The notes beneath the pieces are model-generated. The model was not told where the DNA came from. It worked only from the letters and a program-made list of their open reading frames with translations, and searched no databases. From NCBI GenBank assembly GCA_014898425.1, contig RCSZ01000001.1, positions 1,860,001-1,924,000 on the forward strand: a stretch of 64,000 nt of DNA, given 5' to 3'. Of this stretch, positions 13,637 to 48,121 are shown piece after piece; the stretch's first letter is position 1, and each line of letters starts with the position of its first letter. This DNA comes from Botryotinia globosa. Its lineage: Eukaryota; Ascomycota; Leotiomycetes; Helotiales; Sclerotiniaceae. A program made the translations under genes and the position numbers.

Positions 13637-14390
13637 ATTGGTCAAAACACAAATATTGATATAAATTTTCGGAATACCTGACTCCCGATGTCCTGGTGTG
13701 CTGGTGTGAGAATGTATGGGTGCGTTGCTCCAGGCAAAGTTATTATATTTACTTTACCTTATTATTGAATGATCTTGTTGACGTGTAGCGGCATACGGCT
13801 CCGCTTGGTTCGTGGCATATGAAATCGAACCAACAACAATTTAATACATAATCGTCTCAACTGTTAACTTATCAACAAGATATCTCACATAGCAATTCGT
13901 TTCTGTTTGTACATTCTCAAGACATTACCCAATTTTTTTAATTTATATATATATATATTTTAAATCAATTGAAAATTTGTAAATGGGACCTATATTTTGG
14001 GAAGTGTGTTACTGTAATCTTTTCGACTAAAAAATACCTACCTACCTACCCATGGCAGGTAGGCACGAGGCGGCAGACACACTAGCGCCTATCAAAAGTA
14101 AATTTAGTGGCCTCGCGTTAAACCTTAATTTTGCGAATTTTGGGAACTGAAAGACCTCTTCTAGTAAACTGATATCAAAATACACTCTATTGTGGCGTCT
14201 GTCAACTTTCTTTGCATACCTTCTTTGATTCATCAGTATATTGGAGATAACTTTAATAATCCATGTTTTAGAGGAACTACTTCAGATGACTTGAAACCTT
14301 CCTTCCAGCCATCTTCTTTCGATTTCTTCTCAATATTCGCCATATAGGCTTCAGCCTTTCTCACACCGTGAAATTGACGACTCATAAACA
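13637..14390. other. Divergent promoter region with AT tract
   Basis: About 750 bp between the divergent coiled-coil and BRR2 genes. An AT run sits near 13938-13965 and a CTAC-rich patch near 14036-14050. No exon recognised. Confidence 0.6.
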
Positions 14391-17300
14391 ATGACGGACC
14401 AACAGCGCGATGTGTCGCAGTACAAGTATGCGGCGATGTCCAATCTGGTTCTCCAGGCGGACCGTCGATTCGTTACTCGCCGTAACGATGAGGTAACAGG
14501 AGATCCAGAATCACTGGCGGGGCAAATTAGTATTCGGGATATGGGTTCGAGAAATGCCCGCGAGGACGCGCCGAAACAGAAAAAGAAAGCTTCAGGCCTT
14601 CCAGATGTTGAGAGAGGAGGATACCGCGAGGGCGAAGATGTCTTAGAACGAGAACAGCGCAAACGCAAGCGTGGAGAGCCAGCACAACTGCGAGGGACTG
14701 GAATCTTGTCAGCTGCAGATGCCTTGGTCGAGGGTATTCGATATAGACCTAGGACTTCGGCAACGCGAGCAACTTACGACCTCATCTTAACCACAGTCGC
14801 TAACAATCTCGGAGATGTTCCTCACGAAGTTGTTCGGAGCGCCACCGACGCCGTGCTGGAATATTTGAAGGACGATGATATGAAAGATTTTGACAAGAAG
14901 AAGGAGATCGACGACCTGCTAGGCGCAGGTATGAATCCAAAGCAATTCAACGAGCTTGTAAACTTGGGGAAAAAGATTACGGATTATGACGCGCAGGATG
15001 AAGACGAAGAGATGGCAGATGGAGATAACGGCGGCGAAAACGGCGCTGAAATAGATGATCGCCAAGGAGTAGCTGTTGTATTCGACGATAATTCCGACGA
15101 GGAAGGTGATGAGGTGCTTAATGAAATTCGAGAAGAGTCGTCTGAAGATGAGGATGACGCTCAAGACCGCCCTGGTGACGAGGAAGTCGCTAAGGCTGGT
15201 GGCGCTGGAGTGGATAGAGATGAAGAATCCCAAGTACTGCCCGAAGAGGAAGCAATAATTATGGACTCTGGTTCAACACAGAACGCTGACTCATCCAAAG
15301 ACAAGAAAGACTTCATACCCGCACGCGAAATTGATGCATACTGGCTGCAACGACAAATTGGCTCAGTCTACACAGATGCGCATGTACAACAGCTTAAAAC
15401 ACAAGAAGTACTCCACACACTTTCTGGAGCTCCCGCGGAAGAAGGCGGGGATGAGAAACCTCTCAGGGAAATCGAAAACGATCTTGCTGAATTGTTTGAT
15501 TATGAGCATCATGAGCTCGTACACAAACTGATCGCCAATCGGGATAAGGTAGTATGGCTCACTCGTTTAGCTAGGGCCGAGGATGCCGAAGCTCGAGGTG
15601 TTGTAGAACGTGAAATTGCATCCGAAGGACTACGATGGATCTTGGATGAGCTTCGCGGAGGTGCGCCAGCAGACGGATCGAAGAAACGAAAACTAGAAAT
15701 GAAAATGGATATTGACGTTCCAGCCGAATACATTAATGGCGGCACCAAGAGCGAGCAAAAAGACAGAGATGGTTTAGTTGGTGGACTGCAACCGCGAAAG
15801 CTCATTAATCTTGAAAATCTTGTCTTTGATCAAGGCAATCATTTGATGACAAATCCCAAGGTCAAGTTGCCAGAGGGGTCTACAAAGCGAACTTTCAAAG
15901 GATATGAAGAGATTCATGTACCGCCTCCCAAGAAGCGCAACGATCCTTCTGATCGTGACATTCCAGTTACGGAGATGCCTGAATGGGCGCGTGTTCCATT
16001 CTCATCCACAGTCAAGCTAAACAAGATCCAATCTCAGTGCTTTCCGACAGCCTTTGAGGATGATGGTAATATGCTTATCTGCGCGCCCACTGGAAGTGGC
16101 AAGACCAATGTCGGTATGTTGACTATATTACGAGAAATCGGCAAAAATCGCAATCCAGAGACCGGAGAAATCAACCTCGACGCATTCAAAATCGTTTACA
16201 TTGCGCCGCTCAAAGCTTTGGTTCAAGAACAAGTAGGAAATTTCGGTGCCAGACTAAAGCCATACGGCATTCAGGTTTCTGAATTGACTGGAGATCGTCA
16301 GCTCACGAAGCAACAGATTGCCGATACCCAAATCATTGTGACAACACCTGAAAAATGGGATGTCATCACTCGAAAAGCTACTGATTTGAGTTACACCAAT
16401 TTGGTCCGTCTCATTATTATTGATGAAATCCATCTTTTGCATGATGATCGTGGACCTGTTCTGGAAAGTATTGTGAGCCGAACAATCAGAAAGATGGAGC
16501 AGACTGGTGATCCTGTTCGTCTGATAGGTCTCTCCGCCACATTGCCAAATTACCGTGACGTCGCAAGCTTTCTACGCGTCGATCCTCTCAAAGGCATGTT
16601 CCATTTTGATGGATCGTACCGCCCTTGTCCACTTCGCCAAGAATTTGTTGGAATAACCGAAAAGAAGGCCATCAAACAACTGAAGACTATGAATGACGTG
16701 ACTTATACCAAGGTTTTAGAGCATGTAGGGACAAATCGAAACCAGATGATTATCTTTGTGCACTCACGTAAGGAGACTGCCAAAACAGCTAGATATATTC
16801 GAGACAAAGCCTTGGAAATGGAGACGATTGGACAGATTTTGCGGAGTGATGTGTCGGGAACTCGAGAGACTCTCGCTTCTGAGGCAGAAGAGGTCAGCGA
16901 CCGAGAGCTCAAGGACTTGTTACCCTACGGCTTCGGAATACATCACGCTGGTATGAACAGGCCAGATCGAACATCTGTTGAGGAACTTTTTCATGAAGGT
17001 TTAATTCAAGTACTTGTCTGTACTGCTACATTGGCATGGGGTGTTAATTTACCAGCACATACTGTCATCATCAAAGGTACTCAAGTCTACTCCCCGGAGA
17101 AAGGAAGTTGGGTAGAATTGAGTCCGCAAGATGTACTTCAAATGCTTGGGCGTGCTGGCCGTCCCCAATATGACACATATGGAGAGGGTATCATTATAAC
17201 CACCCAGAACGAGATGCAGTATTATCTATCACTTTTGAACCAACAATTGCCAATCGAGAGTCAGTTTGTGAGTAGATTGGTAGACAATCTAAACGCAGAG

Positions 17301-20300
17301 GTTGTTCTTGGTAATGTCCGTAGTCGCGACGAAGGTGTTGACTGGTTAGGATACACTTATCTGTTCGTGCGAATGCTGCGGTCACCAGGATTGTACAGCG
17401 TAGGAGCCGACTATGAAGATGATAGCGCCCTGGAGCAAAAGCGAGTTGATTTGATCCATTCTGCGGCTATAGTGCTGGAGAAATCTAACCTTATAAAATA
17501 CGACAAGAAGACGGGTAAACTACAAGCGACTGAACTTGGTAGAATTGCATCTCATTATTATATTACACACAACTCCATGTTGACTTACAACCACCACCTC
17601 CAACCATCGATCACGCCAATAGAACTTTTCCGCGTCTTTGCGTTGAGTGACGAATTCAAGTACATCCCAGTTCGCCAAGAAGAAAAGTTGGAACTAGCCA
17701 AACTTCTAGGACGTGTGCCAATTCCCGTAAAGGAAAGTGTCGAGGAGCCTCATGCCAAGATAAATGTACTTTTGCAGGCTTACGTTTCGAGATTAAAATT
17801 GGATGGACTAGCATTGATGGCAGATTTGGTATACGTCACTCAATCAGCTGGAAGAATTCTGCGTGCTATTTTCGAAATCACTCTTAAGAAGGGGTGGTCT
17901 TCGGTAGCTAGGACAGCTTTGGAGCTTTGCAAAATGGCAGAAAAGCGCATGTGGCCAACAATGTCACCTCTCAGACAATTTGCCGGATGTCCTAGGGACA
18001 TCATACAAAAAGCTGAGAGAATTGACGTTTCATGGGCCAACTACTTTGATCTTGATCCGCCACGCATGGGCGAATTATTAGGTCTTCCGAAAGCAGGCCG
18101 AACTGTTTGCAATCTTGTTGCAAAATTTCCACGACTAGACGTTCAGGCACAAGTGCAACCGATGACGAGATCAATGCTGAGAGTAGAGTTGACCATCACA
18201 CCCAAGTTTGAGTGGGATGACGAGGTTCATGGTGCTGCAGAAAGTTTCTGGATCATCGCTGAAGACTGTGACGGCGAGGATATTCTTTTCCACGATCAAT
18301 TCATTCTTCGTAAAGATTTTGCTCAAGCTGAAATGAACGAGCATCTTATTGAATTCACAGTCCCCATCACAGAGCCCATGCCACCACATTATTTCATCAC
18401 TGTTGTCTCGGACCGATGGATGAATTGTGAAACCAAGCTTGCTGTCTCGTTCCAGAAACTCATCTTGCCCGAGAAATTTCCACCTCATACACCATTGTTG
18501 GATTTGCAGCCTTTGCCTGTTGCAGCCTTAAAAGTCGATGAATTCAAATCATTGTACCCAGACTGGGATCGCTTCAACAAGATTCAGACACAAACATTTA
18601 AATCCCTTTTTGATACTGATGACAATGTATTTGTTGGAGCTCCCACCGGAAGCGGCAAGACTGTTTGCGCAGAATTTGCGTTGCTCCATCACTGGAAAAA
18701 TGGTGACGCAGGACGTGCTGTCTACATTGCTCCATTCCAAGAACTTGTTGATCTTAGGCTTCAAGATTGGCAGAAGCGCTTTTCGACACTTCTGGGAGGC
18801 AAAGAGATTGTGAAGCTCACAGGAGAAACCACTGCCGACCTCAAACTTCTAGAGAGAGGTGATTTAATCCTCGCAACACCTTCTCAATGGGATGTTCTAT
18901 CACGACAATGGCAACGCCGGAAGAATGTGCAGAATGTTGAACTTTTCATCGCAGATGAACTGCACATGCTTGGTGGACAGGCTGGGTTTGTTTATGAGAT
19001 CATTGTCTCTCGCATGCATTATATCCGATCACAAACCGAGTTACCATTGCGAATCGTGGGGCTAAGTGTTTCGCTCGCCAATGCTCGTGATATTGGAGAA
19101 TGGATAGATGCGAAAAAGCACAACATCTACAACTTTAGTCCTCACGTTCGTTCAGTTCCTCTCGAGCTTCATATTCAGTCGTTCACTATTCCCCATTTCC
19201 CCTCTCTTATGCTTGCCATGGCAAAGCCAACTTACCTTGCCATAAATCAAATGTCGCCAGACAAGCCTGCTCTTGTATTTGTTCCTAGTAGAAAGCAAGC
19301 CCGTGCTACAACCCGTGATTTACTCCTGGCATGTCTAGCTAGCGACGACGAAGATCGTTTCCTGCACGCCGATGTGGATGAGATGAAGCCCCTATTAGAA
19401 CGAATTCAAGAAGAAGCTCTCGCAGAATCTATCTCGCATGGCATAGGTTATTATCACGAGGCTCTTAGCACAAGCGATAAACGTATTGTGAAACATCTTT
19501 ATGATAATGGGGCAATACAAGTGATGGTAGCATCTCGTGACGTTTGCTGGGAACTTGATTGCAAAGCACATTTGGTCATTGTGATGGGCACCCAGTTCTA
19601 TGAAGGCAGGGAGCACCGCTACGTCGACTACCCTCTTAGCGAGATCCTACAAATGTTCGGCAAAGCAACGCGACCTCTGGAAGACAAAATTAGTAGGGGT
19701 GTTTTAATGGTACCAGCTGTTAAGAGAGAGTACTACAAGAAGTTTTTGAATGAAGCTCTTCCAATCGAGAGTCATCTTCAGGTTTATTTGCATGATGCTT
19801 TCGTGTCTGAAATCAGTACCAAAATGATCGAGTCAGCTAGCGATGCCATCAACTGGACTACTTTTACGTATTTCTATCGAAGATTGCTTGCAAACCCCAG
19901 CTACTATAGTCTCAAAGATACATCCCATGAAGGTCTTAGTGCCCACCTCTCGGAGCTTGTAGAAACCACTCTGAAAGATCTGGCCGAGTTCAAGATCATC
20001 GATTTGGATGAAGAGGACGACTCTGTCACTCCATTAAACGCAGCAATGATTGCCGCCTATTACAATATCTCATACGTCACCATGCAGACCTTTTTGCTTT
20101 CATTGACTGGCCGTACCAAGCTCAAGGGTATTTTAGAAATCGTCACTTCAGCAACCGAGTTCGAAACCATACAGATCAGAAGACACGAAGACAGTTTGCT
20201 TCGTAGAGTATATGATCGACTTCCGGTCAAGATGGCCCAGCCAAGCTTTGATTCGCCGCACTTCAAGGCATTTGTCCTACTTCAAGCGCATTTCTCTAGA

Positions 20301-21125
20301 ATGCAGCTACCAATTGATCTTGCTAAGGATCAAGAGATCATTTTAACGAAAGTTCTTGGTCTCTTAAGTGCTACTGTAGATGTCTTATCCTCAGACGGTC
20401 ACATTAACGCCATGAATGCCATGGAAATGTCACAAATGGTTGTGCAAGGGATGTGGGATCGCGATAGCCCTTTGAAACAGATTCCTCACTTTACACCCGA
20501 GGTTATCAAGGCTGCAAATGAATCTGGGTACGTTTTAAATTTTCACACTAATAAAGTACCTCCGCTAATCAAACATATCTACAGTATCAAGGACATCTTC
20601 GAGTTTATGGACGCAATGGACCCTTCCGAAAATCCAGACTATGAAGCTCTCATCAAGAGACTTGGTCTCTCGCAAACACAATTGGCACAGGCAGCCAATT
20701 TCACGAATTCTAAATATCCTAACATTGAGCTTGACTTTGAAGTGGAGGATCCGGAGGAGATTGTAGCTGGATCACCAGCCTACCTTAAAATCAAGATTGT
20801 GCGAGATGTTGATGAAGATGACGATGCGGCAGAGGTGGATATGTCCGTACATGCTCCCTTCTACCCCGCAAAGAAAATGGAGAATTGGTGGTTGGTCGTG
20901 GGCGATGAAGGTACAAAAACGTTACTTGCGATCAAACGGGTTACAATCGGGAAAACGTTGAACCTTCGGCTGGAATATACGGTACCAACACCTGGAGAGC
21001 ATGATCTAAAGTTGTTCCTCATGAGCGACAGCTATGTGGGTGTCGATCAAGATCCCAGTTTCCATGTCTCGGTAGCAGAAGGAATGGATGAAGATGAAGA
21101 CGAAGAAGACGAAGAAGAAGAATGA
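14391..21125 (+). CDS. BRR2: U5 snRNP RNA helicase Brr2
   Basis: Ski2-like ATPase that unwinds U4/U6 snRNA during spliceosome activation and acts again in disassembly. One exon, 2244 aa, full length for the family. An acidic, low-complexity N-terminal region (about 1-480) precedes two tandem helicase cassettes, each followed by a Sec63-type domain. Cassette 1 has APTGSGKT (about 564-571), DEIH (about 678-681), the SATLPNYRDVA motif and QMLGRAGRPQYD. Cassette 2 has GAPTGSGKT (about 1416-1424) but DELH (about 1522) and degenerate later motifs (SVSLANARD, QMFGKATRP). This is the known pattern of an active first cassette and an inactive regulatory second one. The C-terminus is a run of Asp/Glu. 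The start is the only ATG upstream of the conserved YKYAAMSNLVLQADRR motif. A spliceosome gene of 6.7 kb without any intron is notable among intron-bearing neighbours. Confidence 0.98.
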   Translation: MTDQQRDVSQYKYAAMSNLVLQADRRFVTRRNDEVTGDPESLAGQISIRDMGSRNAREDAPKQKKKASGLPDVERGGYREGEDVLEREQRKRKRGEPAQLRGTGILSAADALVEGIRYRPRTSATRATYDLILTTVANNLGDVPHEVVRSATDAVLEYLKDDDMKDFDKKKEIDDLLGAGMNPKQFNELVNLGKKITDYDAQDEDEEMADGDNGGENGAEIDDRQGVAVVFDDNSDEEGDEVLNEIREESSEDEDDAQDRPGDEEVAKAGGAGVDRDEESQVLPEEEAIIMDSGSTQNADSSKDKKDFIPAREIDAYWLQRQIGSVYTDAHVQQLKTQEVLHTLSGAPAEEGGDEKPLREIENDLAELFDYEHHELVHKLIANRDKVVWLTRLARAEDAEARGVVEREIASEGLRWILDELRGGAPADGSKKRKLEMKMDIDVPAEYINGGTKSEQKDRDGLVGGLQPRKLINLENLVFDQGNHLMTNPKVKLPEGSTKRTFKGYEEIHVPPPKKRNDPSDRDIPVTEMPEWARVPFSSTVKLNKIQSQCFPTAFEDDGNMLICAPTGSGKTNVGMLTILREIGKNRNPETGEINLDAFKIVYIAPLKALVQEQVGNFGARLKPYGIQVSELTGDRQLTKQQIADTQIIVTTPEKWDVITRKATDLSYTNLVRLIIIDEIHLLHDDRGPVLESIVSRTIRKMEQTGDPVRLIGLSATLPNYRDVASFLRVDPLKGMFHFDGSYRPCPLRQEFVGITEKKAIKQLKTMNDVTYTKVLEHVGTNRNQMIIFVHSRKETAKTARYIRDKALEMETIGQILRSDVSGTRETLASEAEEVSDRELKDLLPYGFGIHHAGMNRPDRTSVEELFHEGLIQVLVCTATLAWGVNLPAHTVIIKGTQVYSPEKGSWVELSPQDVLQMLGRAGRPQYDTYGEGIIITTQNEMQYYLSLLNQQLPIESQFVSRLVDNLNAEVVLGNVRSRDEGVDWLGYTYLFVRMLRSPGLYSVGADYEDDSALEQKRVDLIHSAAIVLEKSNLIKYDKKTGKLQATELGRIASHYYITHNSMLTYNHHLQPSITPIELFRVFALSDEFKYIPVRQEEKLELAKLLGRVPIPVKESVEEPHAKINVLLQAYVSRLKLDGLALMADLVYVTQSAGRILRAIFEITLKKGWSSVARTALELCKMAEKRMWPTMSPLRQFAGCPRDIIQKAERIDVSWANYFDLDPPRMGELLGLPKAGRTVCNLVAKFPRLDVQAQVQPMTRSMLRVELTITPKFEWDDEVHGAAESFWIIAEDCDGEDILFHDQFILRKDFAQAEMNEHLIEFTVPITEPMPPHYFITVVSDRWMNCETKLAVSFQKLILPEKFPPHTPLLDLQPLPVAALKVDEFKSLYPDWDRFNKIQTQTFKSLFDTDDNVFVGAPTGSGKTVCAEFALLHHWKNGDAGRAVYIAPFQELVDLRLQDWQKRFSTLLGGKEIVKLTGETTADLKLLERGDLILATPSQWDVLSRQWQRRKNVQNVELFIADELHMLGGQAGFVYEIIVSRMHYIRSQTELPLRIVGLSVSLANARDIGEWIDAKKHNIYNFSPHVRSVPLELHIQSFTIPHFPSLMLAMAKPTYLAINQMSPDKPALVFVPSRKQARATTRDLLLACLASDDEDRFLHADVDEMKPLLERIQEEALAESISHGIGYYHEALSTSDKRIVKHLYDNGAIQVMVASRDVCWELDCKAHLVIVMGTQFYEGREHRYVDYPLSEILQMFGKATRPLEDKISRGVLMVPAVKREYYKKFLNEALPIESHLQVYLHDAFVSEISTKMIESASDAINWTTFTYFYRRLLANPSYYSLKDTSHEGLSAHLSELVETTLKDLAEFKIIDLDEEDDSVTPLNAAMIAAYYNISYVTMQTFLLSLTGRTKLKGILEIVTSATEFETIQIRRHEDSLLRRVYDRLPVKMAQPSFDSPHFKAFVLLQAHFSRMQLPIDLAKDQEIILTKVLGLLSATVDVLSSDGHINAMNAMEMSQMVVQGMWDRDSPLKQIPHFTPEVIKAANESGYVLNFHTNKVPPLIKHIYSIKDIFEFMDAMDPSENPDYEALIKRLGLSQTQLAQAANFTNSKYPNIELDFEVEDPEEIVAGSPAYLKIKIVRDVDEDDDAAEVDMSVHAPFYPAKKMENWWLVVGDEGTKTLLAIKRVTIGKTLNLRLEYTVPTPGEHDLKLFLMSDSYVGVDQDPSFHVSVAEGMDEDEDEEDEEEE

Positions 21126-24823: not shown

Positions 24824-26050
24824 ATGTCCGCCCCTACCCCCGAAATTCTTCGCTTTACAACCCACAAGTCCCTGAGCCACCGACTCGTTCTCTCTGCTTT
24901 AACAGGTCGTCCAATTCATATCTCACAGATCCGAAGCTCCTCACCTACCAATCCGGGTCTTGCACCTCACGAAGTATCCTTCTTGCGCCTCCTAGAATCC
25001 GTCAGCAATGGATCGTCTGTACAAATATCTTACACCGGTACAACGCTAGTCTACAATCCAGGTGTTATAGCTGGATCGATTGATGGATTGGGTGCAGATG
25101 TGGATGGAGTGATCAAATGCCACTTGCCGGCGAATAATACTCGGGGAGTTAGTTATTTCTTGCTGCCTTTATGTATGCTTGCGCCTTTTGCAAAGAAGGC
25201 CGTCAATGTAAGGTTTGAGGGAGAAGGAGTTATCACAAGTGCAACGGAAGCAGGAGATATTTCAGTGGACAGTGTCAGAACGGCCATTCTACCACTTTAC
25301 GAACCATTCGGAATCATGGCCAGCAAATTAGAAATCAGAGTTTTACAGAGAAGTTGTCCGGGAGCGGGAGGCAAGGGCGGTGGAGGCGTAGTGGAGTTAC
25401 GGTTTGGGAGCCAGATCAAGGCGCTACCGAAAACTTTGCATTTGAACAGGAGTCCTGGAAGGGTGAGGAGGATAAGAGGAGTGGCATACGCGACAGGTGT
25501 GAGCAACAGTCATAATGCGAGAATGATACACGAGGCTAGAGGTATTTTGAATCCATTGGTGGGAGATATCCATATTGCGACACAGTACGATCAAGCGCCG
25601 CTAGTATCGGCAAAGGACAAAACGAATCCAAGCGCGAAAAAGAGGACAGGAGTAGGTTTTGGGTTGGCATTGATTGCGGAGACCAGTTCTGCGGGTGTAA
25701 TATATACGGCGGATGTGGTCTCTCCGAGTGCAGGAGGTGTCGCTCCCGAAGATATTGGAAAGCAGTGTGCATATCAGTTGTTAGAAATTATATCACAGGG
25801 AGGGTGTGTGACGAAGGCTGGAGCACCCACAGTACTGACAATGATGGCAATGGGTTCAGAGGATATCGGCAGATTGAGACTAGGACGAGAAATAATAGCC
25901 TCAGAGGATCTAATAACACTAGGAAGAGATCTAAAAAGGTTTGGGGCAAGCAGTTGGGGTTTACGAGATGTAGACGAAGACGAAAGTGAGGATATCATAG
26001 TGAGCGTTAAGGGCACGGGGGTGGGAAATGTTGGCAGAGGCGTACAGTAG
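24824..26050 (+). CDS. RCL1: RNA 3'-terminal phosphate cyclase-like protein (18S rRNA processing)
   Basis: Nucleolar factor of the U3 small-subunit processome, involved with Bms1 in 18S rRNA maturation. One exon, 408 aa, the usual family length. The protein begins ILRFTTHKSLSHRLVLSALTGRPIHI, the RTC/Rcl1 opening. It lacks the catalytic histidine context of true cyclases and carries Rcl1-type blocks such as RGVAYATGVSNSHNARMIHEARG and GFGLALIAETSSAGVIYTAD. The C-terminal KAGAPTVLTMMAMGSEDIGRLRLG is also typical. The ATG at 24824 lies directly after an AT-rich leader. It converges with the DSC4-like gene, the stops being about 130 bp apart. Confidence 0.96.
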   Translation: MSAPTPEILRFTTHKSLSHRLVLSALTGRPIHISQIRSSSPTNPGLAPHEVSFLRLLESVSNGSSVQISYTGTTLVYNPGVIAGSIDGLGADVDGVIKCHLPANNTRGVSYFLLPLCMLAPFAKKAVNVRFEGEGVITSATEAGDISVDSVRTAILPLYEPFGIMASKLEIRVLQRSCPGAGGKGGGGVVELRFGSQIKALPKTLHLNRSPGRVRRIRGVAYATGVSNSHNARMIHEARGILNPLVGDIHIATQYDQAPLVSAKDKTNPSAKKRTGVGFGLALIAETSSAGVIYTADVVSPSAGGVAPEDIGKQCAYQLLEIISQGGCVTKAGAPTVLTMMAMGSEDIGRLRLGREIIASEDLITLGRDLKRFGASSWGLRDVDEDESEDIIVSVKGTGVGNVGRGVQ

Positions 26051-46972: not shown

Positions 46973-47923
46973 TAATGCGGACGTCTTTAATTCGAGAACT
47001 GAGGTTAATTAAAACCATAAGATGCAAACAACACTAGAGCCATCGGCCTCGCTTCCTATACTTGAACAACTTTCACCTACTCCAGTAGCAGAGGACCGGT
47101 GCTGCCCTGAGAGCCCTGCACCTTCGTCAGAGAACAATTGCTGTAGCGAGGATTGGAATTGAGAGCTTGATAATGATCGCGACGATGAAATGGTGTGTTG
47201 GAATGGATATTGTCATACACCCTAATACAAGAAACCTGTAAACCTTGTTCAATGATCTTCAATGATGAACTGTGACTCTGTGAGACGTCCTAGTAGTCTG
47301 TAATATCTTCGGTGAGCCATTATCAGATGAGCTCTCCTTGGTAAAATTTGATCGTACAGTACGGATGCAGTTCAACCATCTTTCAACACGGGATGCTGAG
47401 TAACGGGAAGAGAACCCGAATTTCCCGATTCGAATTGGACATCCCTCCAATGCGTCCGTTTGTAGATAGCCATCTCTTTGAATTACCGCGACTGTGAAAT
47501 TCGTACCTCAAATCATTCATACGCTCTAGCACATGGTAGAAACTAGAGGCCAACAAGTGACAACGACATGTAAGGTTTTTAGACAAACTCTTACAGCATA
47601 ATAAAAAAGACCTTCAGTACCTAGGTACTTCGAATATATTTCAATATTGAATGTTGTATTTCCCAACGAGTCATGTACTTTTTTAACTCAAAAAACATGA
47701 GATATAACAAGTGAATTGATCAATACATGTACAATTGTCATCCAGACCAGACTCACAAGTTCCACATCGGTACTCCGAGTCTCCTACCGATCAAACCCCA
47801 CTATTTCTCTCCTCCAAACCAATCTGCACCTCTTGCTCAATCGACCCCACTCGACCCCTGCAAAAACTGATAGTACCCTAATATATATTCAAAAACGGCG
47901 GTTTCGTCAAACAAACATGCCAA
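46973..47923. other. Intergenic region upstream of the tRNA gene
   Basis: About 950 bp with no recognised exon. Close to the tRNA an AT motif (TAATATATATTC, about 47,879-47,890) lies about 35-45 bp before the mature 5' end and could serve as a TATA-like TFIIIB site. Confidence 0.55.
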
Positions 47924-48085
47924 ACTCCAGTGACGCGTAAGTTACTGCCTCCATTCCAAAAATGAAGGTACATCATGGCTAATATATAAATTATAGAGTG
48001 GTTAGCGTGTCGTTCTTATATTCTTCCCCTTGTGGATCAATATGAAGTTATGCGAAAGTCGTGGGTTCGACACCCACCTGGAGTA
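47924..48085 (+). tRNA. tRNA-Ile(UAU) gene with a canonical anticodon intron and a D-arm intron-like insert
   Basis: Read as exons 47924-47936, 47997-48020 and 48050-48085, the RNA folds into a complete 73-nt tRNA. The acceptor stem ACTCCAG/CTGGAGT pairs 7 of 7 with discriminator A. The D stem is ACGC/GCGT with loop AGTGGTTA. The anticodon arm is TCGTT-CTTATAA-TGCGA (one T-T mismatch at the loop end) with anticodon TAT. The variable loop is AAGTC, and the T arm is GTGGG-TTCGACA-CCCAC. The insert at 48021-48049 is at the normal position after base 37 and is expected for this tRNA. The insert at 47937-47996 is between bases 13 and 14 and is not: it begins GTAAGT, holds GGCTAAT and ends ATAG. 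It splits the A box, while the B box (GGTTCGACACC) is intact. It may be functional with dual splicing, or a disrupted copy. Confidence 0.75.
47937..47996 (+). other. 60-nt spliceosomal-type intron inside the tRNA D-arm
   Basis: The boundaries are unambiguous because no flanking base can be shifted. The 5' end is GTAAGT (fungal consensus), the branch-like GGCTAAT lies about 13 nt before the 3' end, and the 3' end is ATAG. Length 60 nt matches the introns of neighbouring protein genes. Only its removal restores the D stem and loop and puts the acceptor strand next to T8-G9. Confidence 0.65.
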
Positions 48086-48114
48086 ACAATCTCTGGTAGA
48101 CACCAAAACAACAA

Positions 48115-48121
48115 TTTTTTT
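48115..48121 (+). terminator. T7 run, candidate RNA polymerase III terminator
   Basis: Seven consecutive T residues, 30 nt after the tRNA 3' end, and the first run of four or more T downstream. Suits Pol III termination. Confidence 0.6.

Follow-up and report, generated by a model that had tools for sequence, protein, structure and literature searches.

The genome of Botryotinia globosa contains two diverged tRNA-Ile(UAU) genes that are interrupted at the same two places. Judging from their sequences, both are very probably functional genes in which a U2-type GU-AG spliceosomal intron separates positions 13 and 14 of the tRNA and an endonuclease-type intron separates positions 37 and 38. Nuclear tRNA introns are generally viewed as endonuclease substrates. 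If the reading proposed here is true, the insert at 13/14 would represent a new class of tRNA intron. A preliminary description of the first locus had suggested a tRNA-Ile(UAU) gene with a spliceosomal-type intron in the D-arm and a normal anticodon intron, and this suggestion gains strength from a second gene, which has diverged but has the same inserts, and from covariation between the exons of the two genes. The evidence for the explanation consists of the sequences and of the way in which they have evolved.

The tRNA-Ile(UAU) Gene Is Interrupted by Two Inserts

The first gene lies in the window, i.e., the whole stretch of 64,000 nucleotides analysed here, which corresponds to positions 1860001-1924000 of contig C1 in a 45.7-Mb draft genome of 27 contigs (Table 1). 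The gene reads ACTCCAG TG ACGC, followed by 60 nt, AGTGGTTA GCGT G TCGTT CTTATA, a further 29 nt and exon 3, which is composed of the segments A TGCGA AAGTC GTGGG TTCGACA CCCAC CTGGAGT A. Upon removal of both inserts, ARAGORN draws a tRNA-Ile(tat) of 73 nt with complete acceptor (7/7), D (4/4) and T (5/5) stems and with an anticodon stem comprising four of five pairs, the exception being a T-T at 31-39. The program thereby agrees with the earlier claim that excision of the D-arm insert restores a 7/7 acceptor stem and a 4/4 D stem, in which the T-T at 31-39 had remained unmentioned.

When the D-arm insert alone was removed, ARAGORN called tRNA-Ile(tat) with an intron of 29 nt; the full gene, as well as the gene devoid of the anticodon intron alone, yielded no tRNA with this program. 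Likewise, two Rfam scans and the bacterial mode of ARAGORN returned no tRNA for the unprocessed gene. Thus, the prediction that standard finders miss the gene holds for ARAGORN and for the Rfam scans, both of which are blind to the uncut gene. For tRNAscan-SE 2.0, the search for noncanonical introns is described, in the part of the paper considered here, for archaeal candidates (PMC8450103). If the proposed splicing is true, it would suggest that introns of this kind conceal some of the tRNAs that are listed as absent from fungal genomes.

Table 1. Features of the two interrupted tRNA-Ile(UAU) genes. Positions refer to the window unless a contig is given.
Feature	Position	Strand	Basis
tRNA-Ile(UAU) gene with two inserts	47924-48085	+	sequence reading and ARAGORN
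Exon 1, positions 1-13: acceptor 5' strand, TG at 8-9, D-stem 5' strand	47924..47936	+	sequence, ARAGORN
D-arm insert, 60 nt, at 13/14; reads as GU-AG spliceosomal intron	47937..47996	+	sequence, shuffles, two-gene comparison
5' splice site GTAAGTTA; the same in the second gene	47937..47944	+	two-gene comparison
Branch-site match CTAAT; branch A 14 nt ahead of the insert end	47979..47983	+	insert sequence
3' splice site TAG	47994..47996	+	insert sequence
Exon 2, positions 14-37: D loop, D-stem 3' strand, anticodon-stem 5' strand	47997..48020	+	ARAGORN
Anticodon TAT	48017-48019	+	within exon 2
Canonical anticodon-loop intron, 29 nt, at 37/38	48021..48049	+	ARAGORN i(38,29), predicted fold
Exon 3, positions 38-73: anticodon-stem 3' strand, variable loop, T arm, acceptor 3' strand, A73	48050..48085	+	ARAGORN
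B box GGTTCGACACC, intact	48064..48074	+	B-box pattern search
TATA-like element, -42 relative to the mature 5' end	47882..47889	+	TATAWW scan
T7 run, candidate Pol III terminator, 29 nt downstream	48115..48121	+	T-run count
Other tRNA-Ile(UAU) gene, likewise interrupted at 13/14 and 37/38	contig C2, 3355279-3355436		genome DNA search with window 47920-48090

A Second Gene Shares the Same Design

Searching the same genome for another tRNA-Ile(TAT) had been proposed as a check of the locus. The genome DNA search with positions 47920-48090 returned, in two pieces, one further locus on contig C2, which bears an insert of the same kind. This gene reads ACCCCGG TG ACGC, 57 nt, AATGGTTA GCGT G TCGAT CTTATA, 28 nt and an exon 3 with the segments C GTCGA AAGTT GTGGG TTCAAGT CCCAC CCGGAGT A. 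Its D-arm insert of 57 nt is likewise located at 13/14 and has the form GTAAGTTA...CTGAC...CAG, with the branch A 13 nt before the end. After removal of both inserts ARAGORN reads tRNA-Ile(tat); after removal of the D-arm insert alone it calls Ser(tga) with a misplaced intron, and the boundaries of the 37/38 intron, which the program placed wrongly, were set by eye. The flanks of the two genes differ, apart from a partial likeness over about 40 nt immediately upstream, where the second gene contains eight additional bases.

Once the introns are taken out, both loci form the cloverleaf of tRNA-Ile(UAU), with the anticodon UAU and the conserved positions in place. In the window gene, the insert after position 37, which had been regarded as the usual tRNA intron and which ARAGORN reports as i(38,29), pairs with the anticodon in a gap-free helix of 7 bp (TTATATT/AATATGA, including one G-U). 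The corresponding intron of the second gene, 28 nt at 37/38, forms a gap-free helix of 5 bp with the anticodon. By location and anticodon pairing, the 37/38 insert is a canonical eukaryotic tRNA intron in both genes. An artefact of assembly or contamination might be considered for a draft genome of 27 contigs; however, the two loci, which lie on contigs 4.1 and 3.4 Mb long, show the same architecture with differing sequences, which renders this explanation hardly conceivable.

The D-Arm Insert Has the Signals of a U2-Type Intron

U2-type introns are characterised by a 5' GTRNGT, a CTRAY branch site close to the 3' terminus, a final YAG and, in this context, a length typical of fungi. At the level of sequence, both D-arm inserts display all of these features and can be classified as putative U2-type spliceosomal introns. 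The combination of GTAAGT at the first base and YAG at the last was found in 2 of 100,000 shuffles of the window insert and in 1 of 100,000 shuffles of the insert of the second gene. When CTRAY was in addition demanded 4-25 nt before the end, the combination occurred in none of the 100,000 shuffles of either insert.

The window harbors seven candidate introns of 49-58 nt, in which 8-21 nt separate the branch A from the 3' end. As these were chosen by the GTRNGT, CTRAY and YAG signals together with open frames, a comparison of the signals would be circular, and the candidates serve solely as a scale for length and spacing. In these respects the D-arm inserts, with 60 and 57 nt and branch distances of 14 and 13, are near the candidate introns. 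The statement that the insert is exactly like the introns of nearby protein genes is slightly too strong, the insert having 60 nt and a branch distance of 14 as compared to 49-58 nt and 8-21 for the candidates. One of the candidates, 25804-25859, sits in an Rcl1-like frame that is open throughout and is matched over its full length by homologues, and is therefore probably due to chance; without it the branch distances of the candidates amount to 8-16. The Rcl1-like protein shows 92% identity to a protein of Rutstroemia sp. and 87% to a protein of Clarireedia jacksonii; as far as one protein can tell, this places the fungus in or close to the Rutstroemiaceae (Helotiales). Positions 14388-21125 of the window hold another open frame, of 2245 codons, which by eye we take to resemble the spliceosomal helicase Brr2.

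The D-arm insert might instead be an ectopic tRNA intron that is cut by the tRNA splicing endonuclease and that resembles a GU-AG intron by coincidence. A D-arm intron is known in the same tRNA of Cyanidioschyzon merolae (PMC9602550), and some of the ectopic introns described for Guillardia theta have no defined bulge-helix-bulge (PMC3978253). However, a strict bulge-helix-bulge is absent at the D-arm borders of both genes at the boundaries used. The central helix comprises two of four pairs in either gene, which led us to reject the strict form of an ectopic bulge-helix-bulge intron; the outer helices contain 1/3 and 2/3 pairs, and the scores were equalled or bettered by 7495 and 6626 of 20,000 shuffles. 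Moreover, an ectopic intron leaves unexplained why GTAAGT, CTRAY and YAG are found at fitting places in both inserts. This alternative is thus very unlikely.

A genome DNA search with the D-arm insert of the window gene matched the insert itself and nothing else; in view of the lack of near-identical copies, an introner-like element was rejected for this insert. A pattern search for other tRNA genes with TGGCNN followed by GTAAGT at 13/14 gave 6 matches as compared to 12 for the control, i.e., chance level, where the matches were judged on the matched letters, which end ahead of the D loop. For U6, 47 of 3947 candidates from the same genome were scored, and the one match above the family cut-off is uninterrupted, indicating that Pol III genes of this fungus do not as a rule carry mRNA-type introns.

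The Two Genes Have Diverged under Constraint

The exons of the two genes are identical at 61 of 73 positions (exon 1, 11/13; exon 2, 22/24; exon 3, 28/36). In the D-arm inserts, the first 8 nt are identical and the branch sites (CTAAT/CTGAC) and 3' splice sites (TAG/CAG) are retained. Their interiors, aligned without the first 8 and the last 4 bases of each insert, are similar at the level of chance, as 640 of 1000 shuffles score as good or better. This pattern suggests that the interior has drifted while the parts that a spliceosome would read have stayed.

Among the 12 exon differences, pair 6-67 changes from A-T in the window gene to G-C in the second gene, pair 30-40 from T-G to A-T and the tertiary pair 15-48 from G-C to A-T. 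Pair 31-39 is T-T in the window gene and T-G in the second, and the sole pair broken by the exon differences is 3-70, which is T-A in the former and C-A in the latter. Each gene has 20 of 21 stem pairs, with one mismatch apiece (31-39 T-T and 3-70 C-A, respectively), and all 21 of the conserved tRNA positions considered. When 200,000 random sets of 12 changes were applied to the window gene, 1866 kept as many stem pairs, 5468 kept as many conserved positions and 16 matched both; two covarying pairs were reached in 3685 sets.

These data bear on the possibility that the two genes are pseudogenes descended from an ancestor that was already interrupted, AUA being decoded either by an inosine-containing tRNA-Ile(AAT) or by an intact gene that escaped detection. 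The six Ile(AAT)-like cores in the genome, the split A box and the one stem mismatch per gene would fit such a scenario. It is opposed by the covariation at 6-67, 30-40 and 15-48, by splice signals that are conserved although the insert interiors are at chance similarity, and by the failure to find an intact Ile(TAT) gene in the genome searches, which were non-exhaustive. We consider it very unlikely: 12 exon differences with covarying pairs are, as sequence evolution, hard to explain for pseudogenes, and a tRNA pseudogene with relaxed constraint on its fold was rejected on account of the covariation and of the joint conservation attained in 16 of 200,000 random sets.

In the predicted folds of the unspliced RNAs of both genes the acceptor stem and the T arm still form. 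Among the covarying pairs, 6-67 alone spans the D-arm insert. Since the acceptor stem forms without splicing, covariation speaks for a functional tRNA fold and not, by itself, for splicing; we infer removal of the insert from the retained splice signals, from the D-arm kept on both sides of it and from the ARAGORN result. The predicted unspliced folds would also suit the idea that the loci have ceased to be tRNAs and encode small RNAs with a different function, tRNA-like in fold except for the D-arm. Against this idea, the D loop, the D stem on either side of the insert and pair 15-48 are either conserved or covarying, and the splice signals have persisted as well, so that it appears highly improbable.

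An Uninterrupted tRNA-Ile(UAU) Gene Was Not Found

Several searches of the genome for an uninterrupted gene were performed. TTATA followed by a B box at a distance of 14-44 or 45-75 nt gave 28 and 25 matches, respectively, as compared to 27 and 39 for the reversed pattern. A crude stem scoring awarded the full 10 also to L079, an AT-rich dispersed repeat, and for this reason ARAGORN was run over all 53 loci. With introns allowed, it reported six tRNAs, none of them Ile(TAT), and stem check and ARAGORN together leave just the two interrupted genes as Ile(TAT) among the 53 loci. By eye, L046 is Lys(CTT) and L066 is Val(TAC), which ARAGORN called Asp(gtc) and Ile(aat); its anticodon calls in the presence of introns are therefore unreliable, including those for the 63 RF00005 matches. 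These 63 matches, the ones scored of 2406 candidates, contain no Ile(TAT) according to ARAGORN.

The AT-rich dispersed repeat contains GTAGTAAGCTATTAGGTTCAATCCC and a B-box-like end and is present on contigs C3, C4, C10, C11, C14, C15 and C24. The GTAGTAAGCTATTAGGTTCAATCCC core occurs in 12 of the TTATA/B-box loci at nine distinct places (e.g., L044, L048, L060, L064 and L079).

The pattern GGTTAR-N9-YTTATA had 22 matches (control, 96), which are the two interrupted genes and 20 loci that are no tRNAs according to ARAGORN and the stem check. A version with TAATA found six identical Ile(AAT)-like cores in 31 matches (control, 65), these being cores without flanks, and shows that the design of the pattern can detect real genes. 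A looser B box resulted in 23 matches (control, 50), namely the two interrupted genes, six known earlier and 15 new ones; nine of the latter were inspected together with their flanks and all lack a complete T stem, and the assessment of the remaining six was based on the matched letters. A genome DNA search with the joined 73-mer matched the window gene as the sole locus and missed even the second gene, and is thus of limited sensitivity. Relatives of the locus were absent from viral contigs (0 matches); four matches in prokaryote genome contigs gave no tRNA with ARAGORN in bacterial mode, and two of them are non-tRNA by eye.

Taken together, these searches, which were non-exhaustive, make an intact tRNA-Ile(UAU) copy elsewhere in the genome unlikely. 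The preliminary description had offered as an alternative that the gene is a copy killed by an intron-like insertion; this is disfavored by a second TAT gene that is likewise interrupted, by the covariation and by the absence of an intact gene from the same searches. AUA accounts for 68 of 410 Ile codons in the stop-to-stop frames of at least 370 codons in the window. In this lineage, every tRNA-Ile(UAU) gene is probably split by a GU-AG intron, so that cytosolic decoding of AUA by tRNA-Ile(UAU) would depend on the spliceosome and then on the endonuclease. If true, this would tie spliceosome activity directly to the translation of AUA codons.

Proposed Transcription and Processing

The A box is split by the D-arm insert in both genes. 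Because of this split, we propose that transcription by Pol III would be aided by the upstream TATA and the intact B box. TATAWW is located at -42 and -40 in the window gene and at -52 in the second gene. Since TATAWW is present within -60..-20 in 42 of the 63 other tRNA genes (RF00005 matches), an upstream TATA as a special adaptation of the interrupted genes was rejected; judging from this sequence signal, many Pol III genes of this fungus may be transcribed from a TATA-led start. TATA-dependent tRNA genes are also remarked on in a passage of PMC3978253, which accords with a TATA-led start tolerating a split A box. Position 14 is A in all 63 sampled tRNA genes and G in both interrupted genes when unspliced. 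The second gene has a T5 run 5 nt downstream, and its insert contains TTTT, at which Pol III might partially terminate; among the 63 tRNA genes, an internal T4 is the longest run in six and T5 in one. The interrupted genes provide a natural test of transcription from a split A box.

After transcription, the spliceosome would recognise GUAAGU, the CURAY branch site and the final YAG and cut out the D-arm intron, in the manner of the mRNA-type intron of fission yeast U6. The D-arm and the tertiary core would then form, and tRNA endonuclease and ligase would subsequently remove the anticodon intron. Splicing of the D-arm before removal of the anticodon intron would be the simplest order because Sen54 of yeast is reported, in the section considered, to contact the D-arm (PMC4090602). 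Judging from its anticodon, the mature tRNA would decode AUA. Both genes likewise offer a natural test of whether the D-arm folds before or after the anticodon intron is removed. If this tRNA is indeed matured by the spliceosome, it would demonstrate that a housekeeping transcript of Pol III can depend obligately on the spliceosome.

Comparison with Known Systems

A literature search confined to papers in PMC with an open licence yielded no tRNA gene described as carrying a spliceosomal intron. The nearest precedent for an mRNA-type intron in a Pol III RNA is the U6 snRNA gene of S. pombe, as described in part of PMC10484740. The genes reported here are similar in that a Pol III RNA is interrupted by an mRNA-type intron. 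They differ in that the host is a tRNA, that the D-arm and the A box are split and that a tRNA-type intron is present in addition; moreover, unlike in S. pombe, the U6 gene found in this fungus is uninterrupted.

The ordinary part of the genes, the anticodon-pairing inserts of 29 and 28 nt at 37/38, resembles tRNA-Ile(UAU) of yeast, for which a canonical intron at 37/38 is described (PMC4090602). With the Guillardia theta nucleomorph, many of whose ectopic tRNA introns are described as having no defined bulge-helix-bulge (PMC3978253), they share eukaryotic tRNA introns away from 37/38; compared by description, the setting is here a fungal nucleus and not a nucleomorph.

Another close counterpart is the nuclear tRNA-Ile(UAU) of the red alga C. 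merolae, which likewise combines a D-arm intron with the canonical intron (PMC9602550, PMC3978253). Its introns are located at 12/13, 37/38 and 53/54, and the anticodon intron is removed last; for the ectopic introns endonuclease cutting is proposed and, according to the available part of that report, little beyond the order of processing is known (PMC9602550). In contrast, the insert described here lies at 13/14 rather than 12/13 and has no strict bulge-helix-bulge, and, as far as a comparison by description goes, the inserts of this filamentous ascomycete have a length of 57-60 nt, GU-AG ends and a branch-site match. The interrupted genes therefore combine features of S. pombe U6 and of the C. 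merolae tRNA, and match neither.
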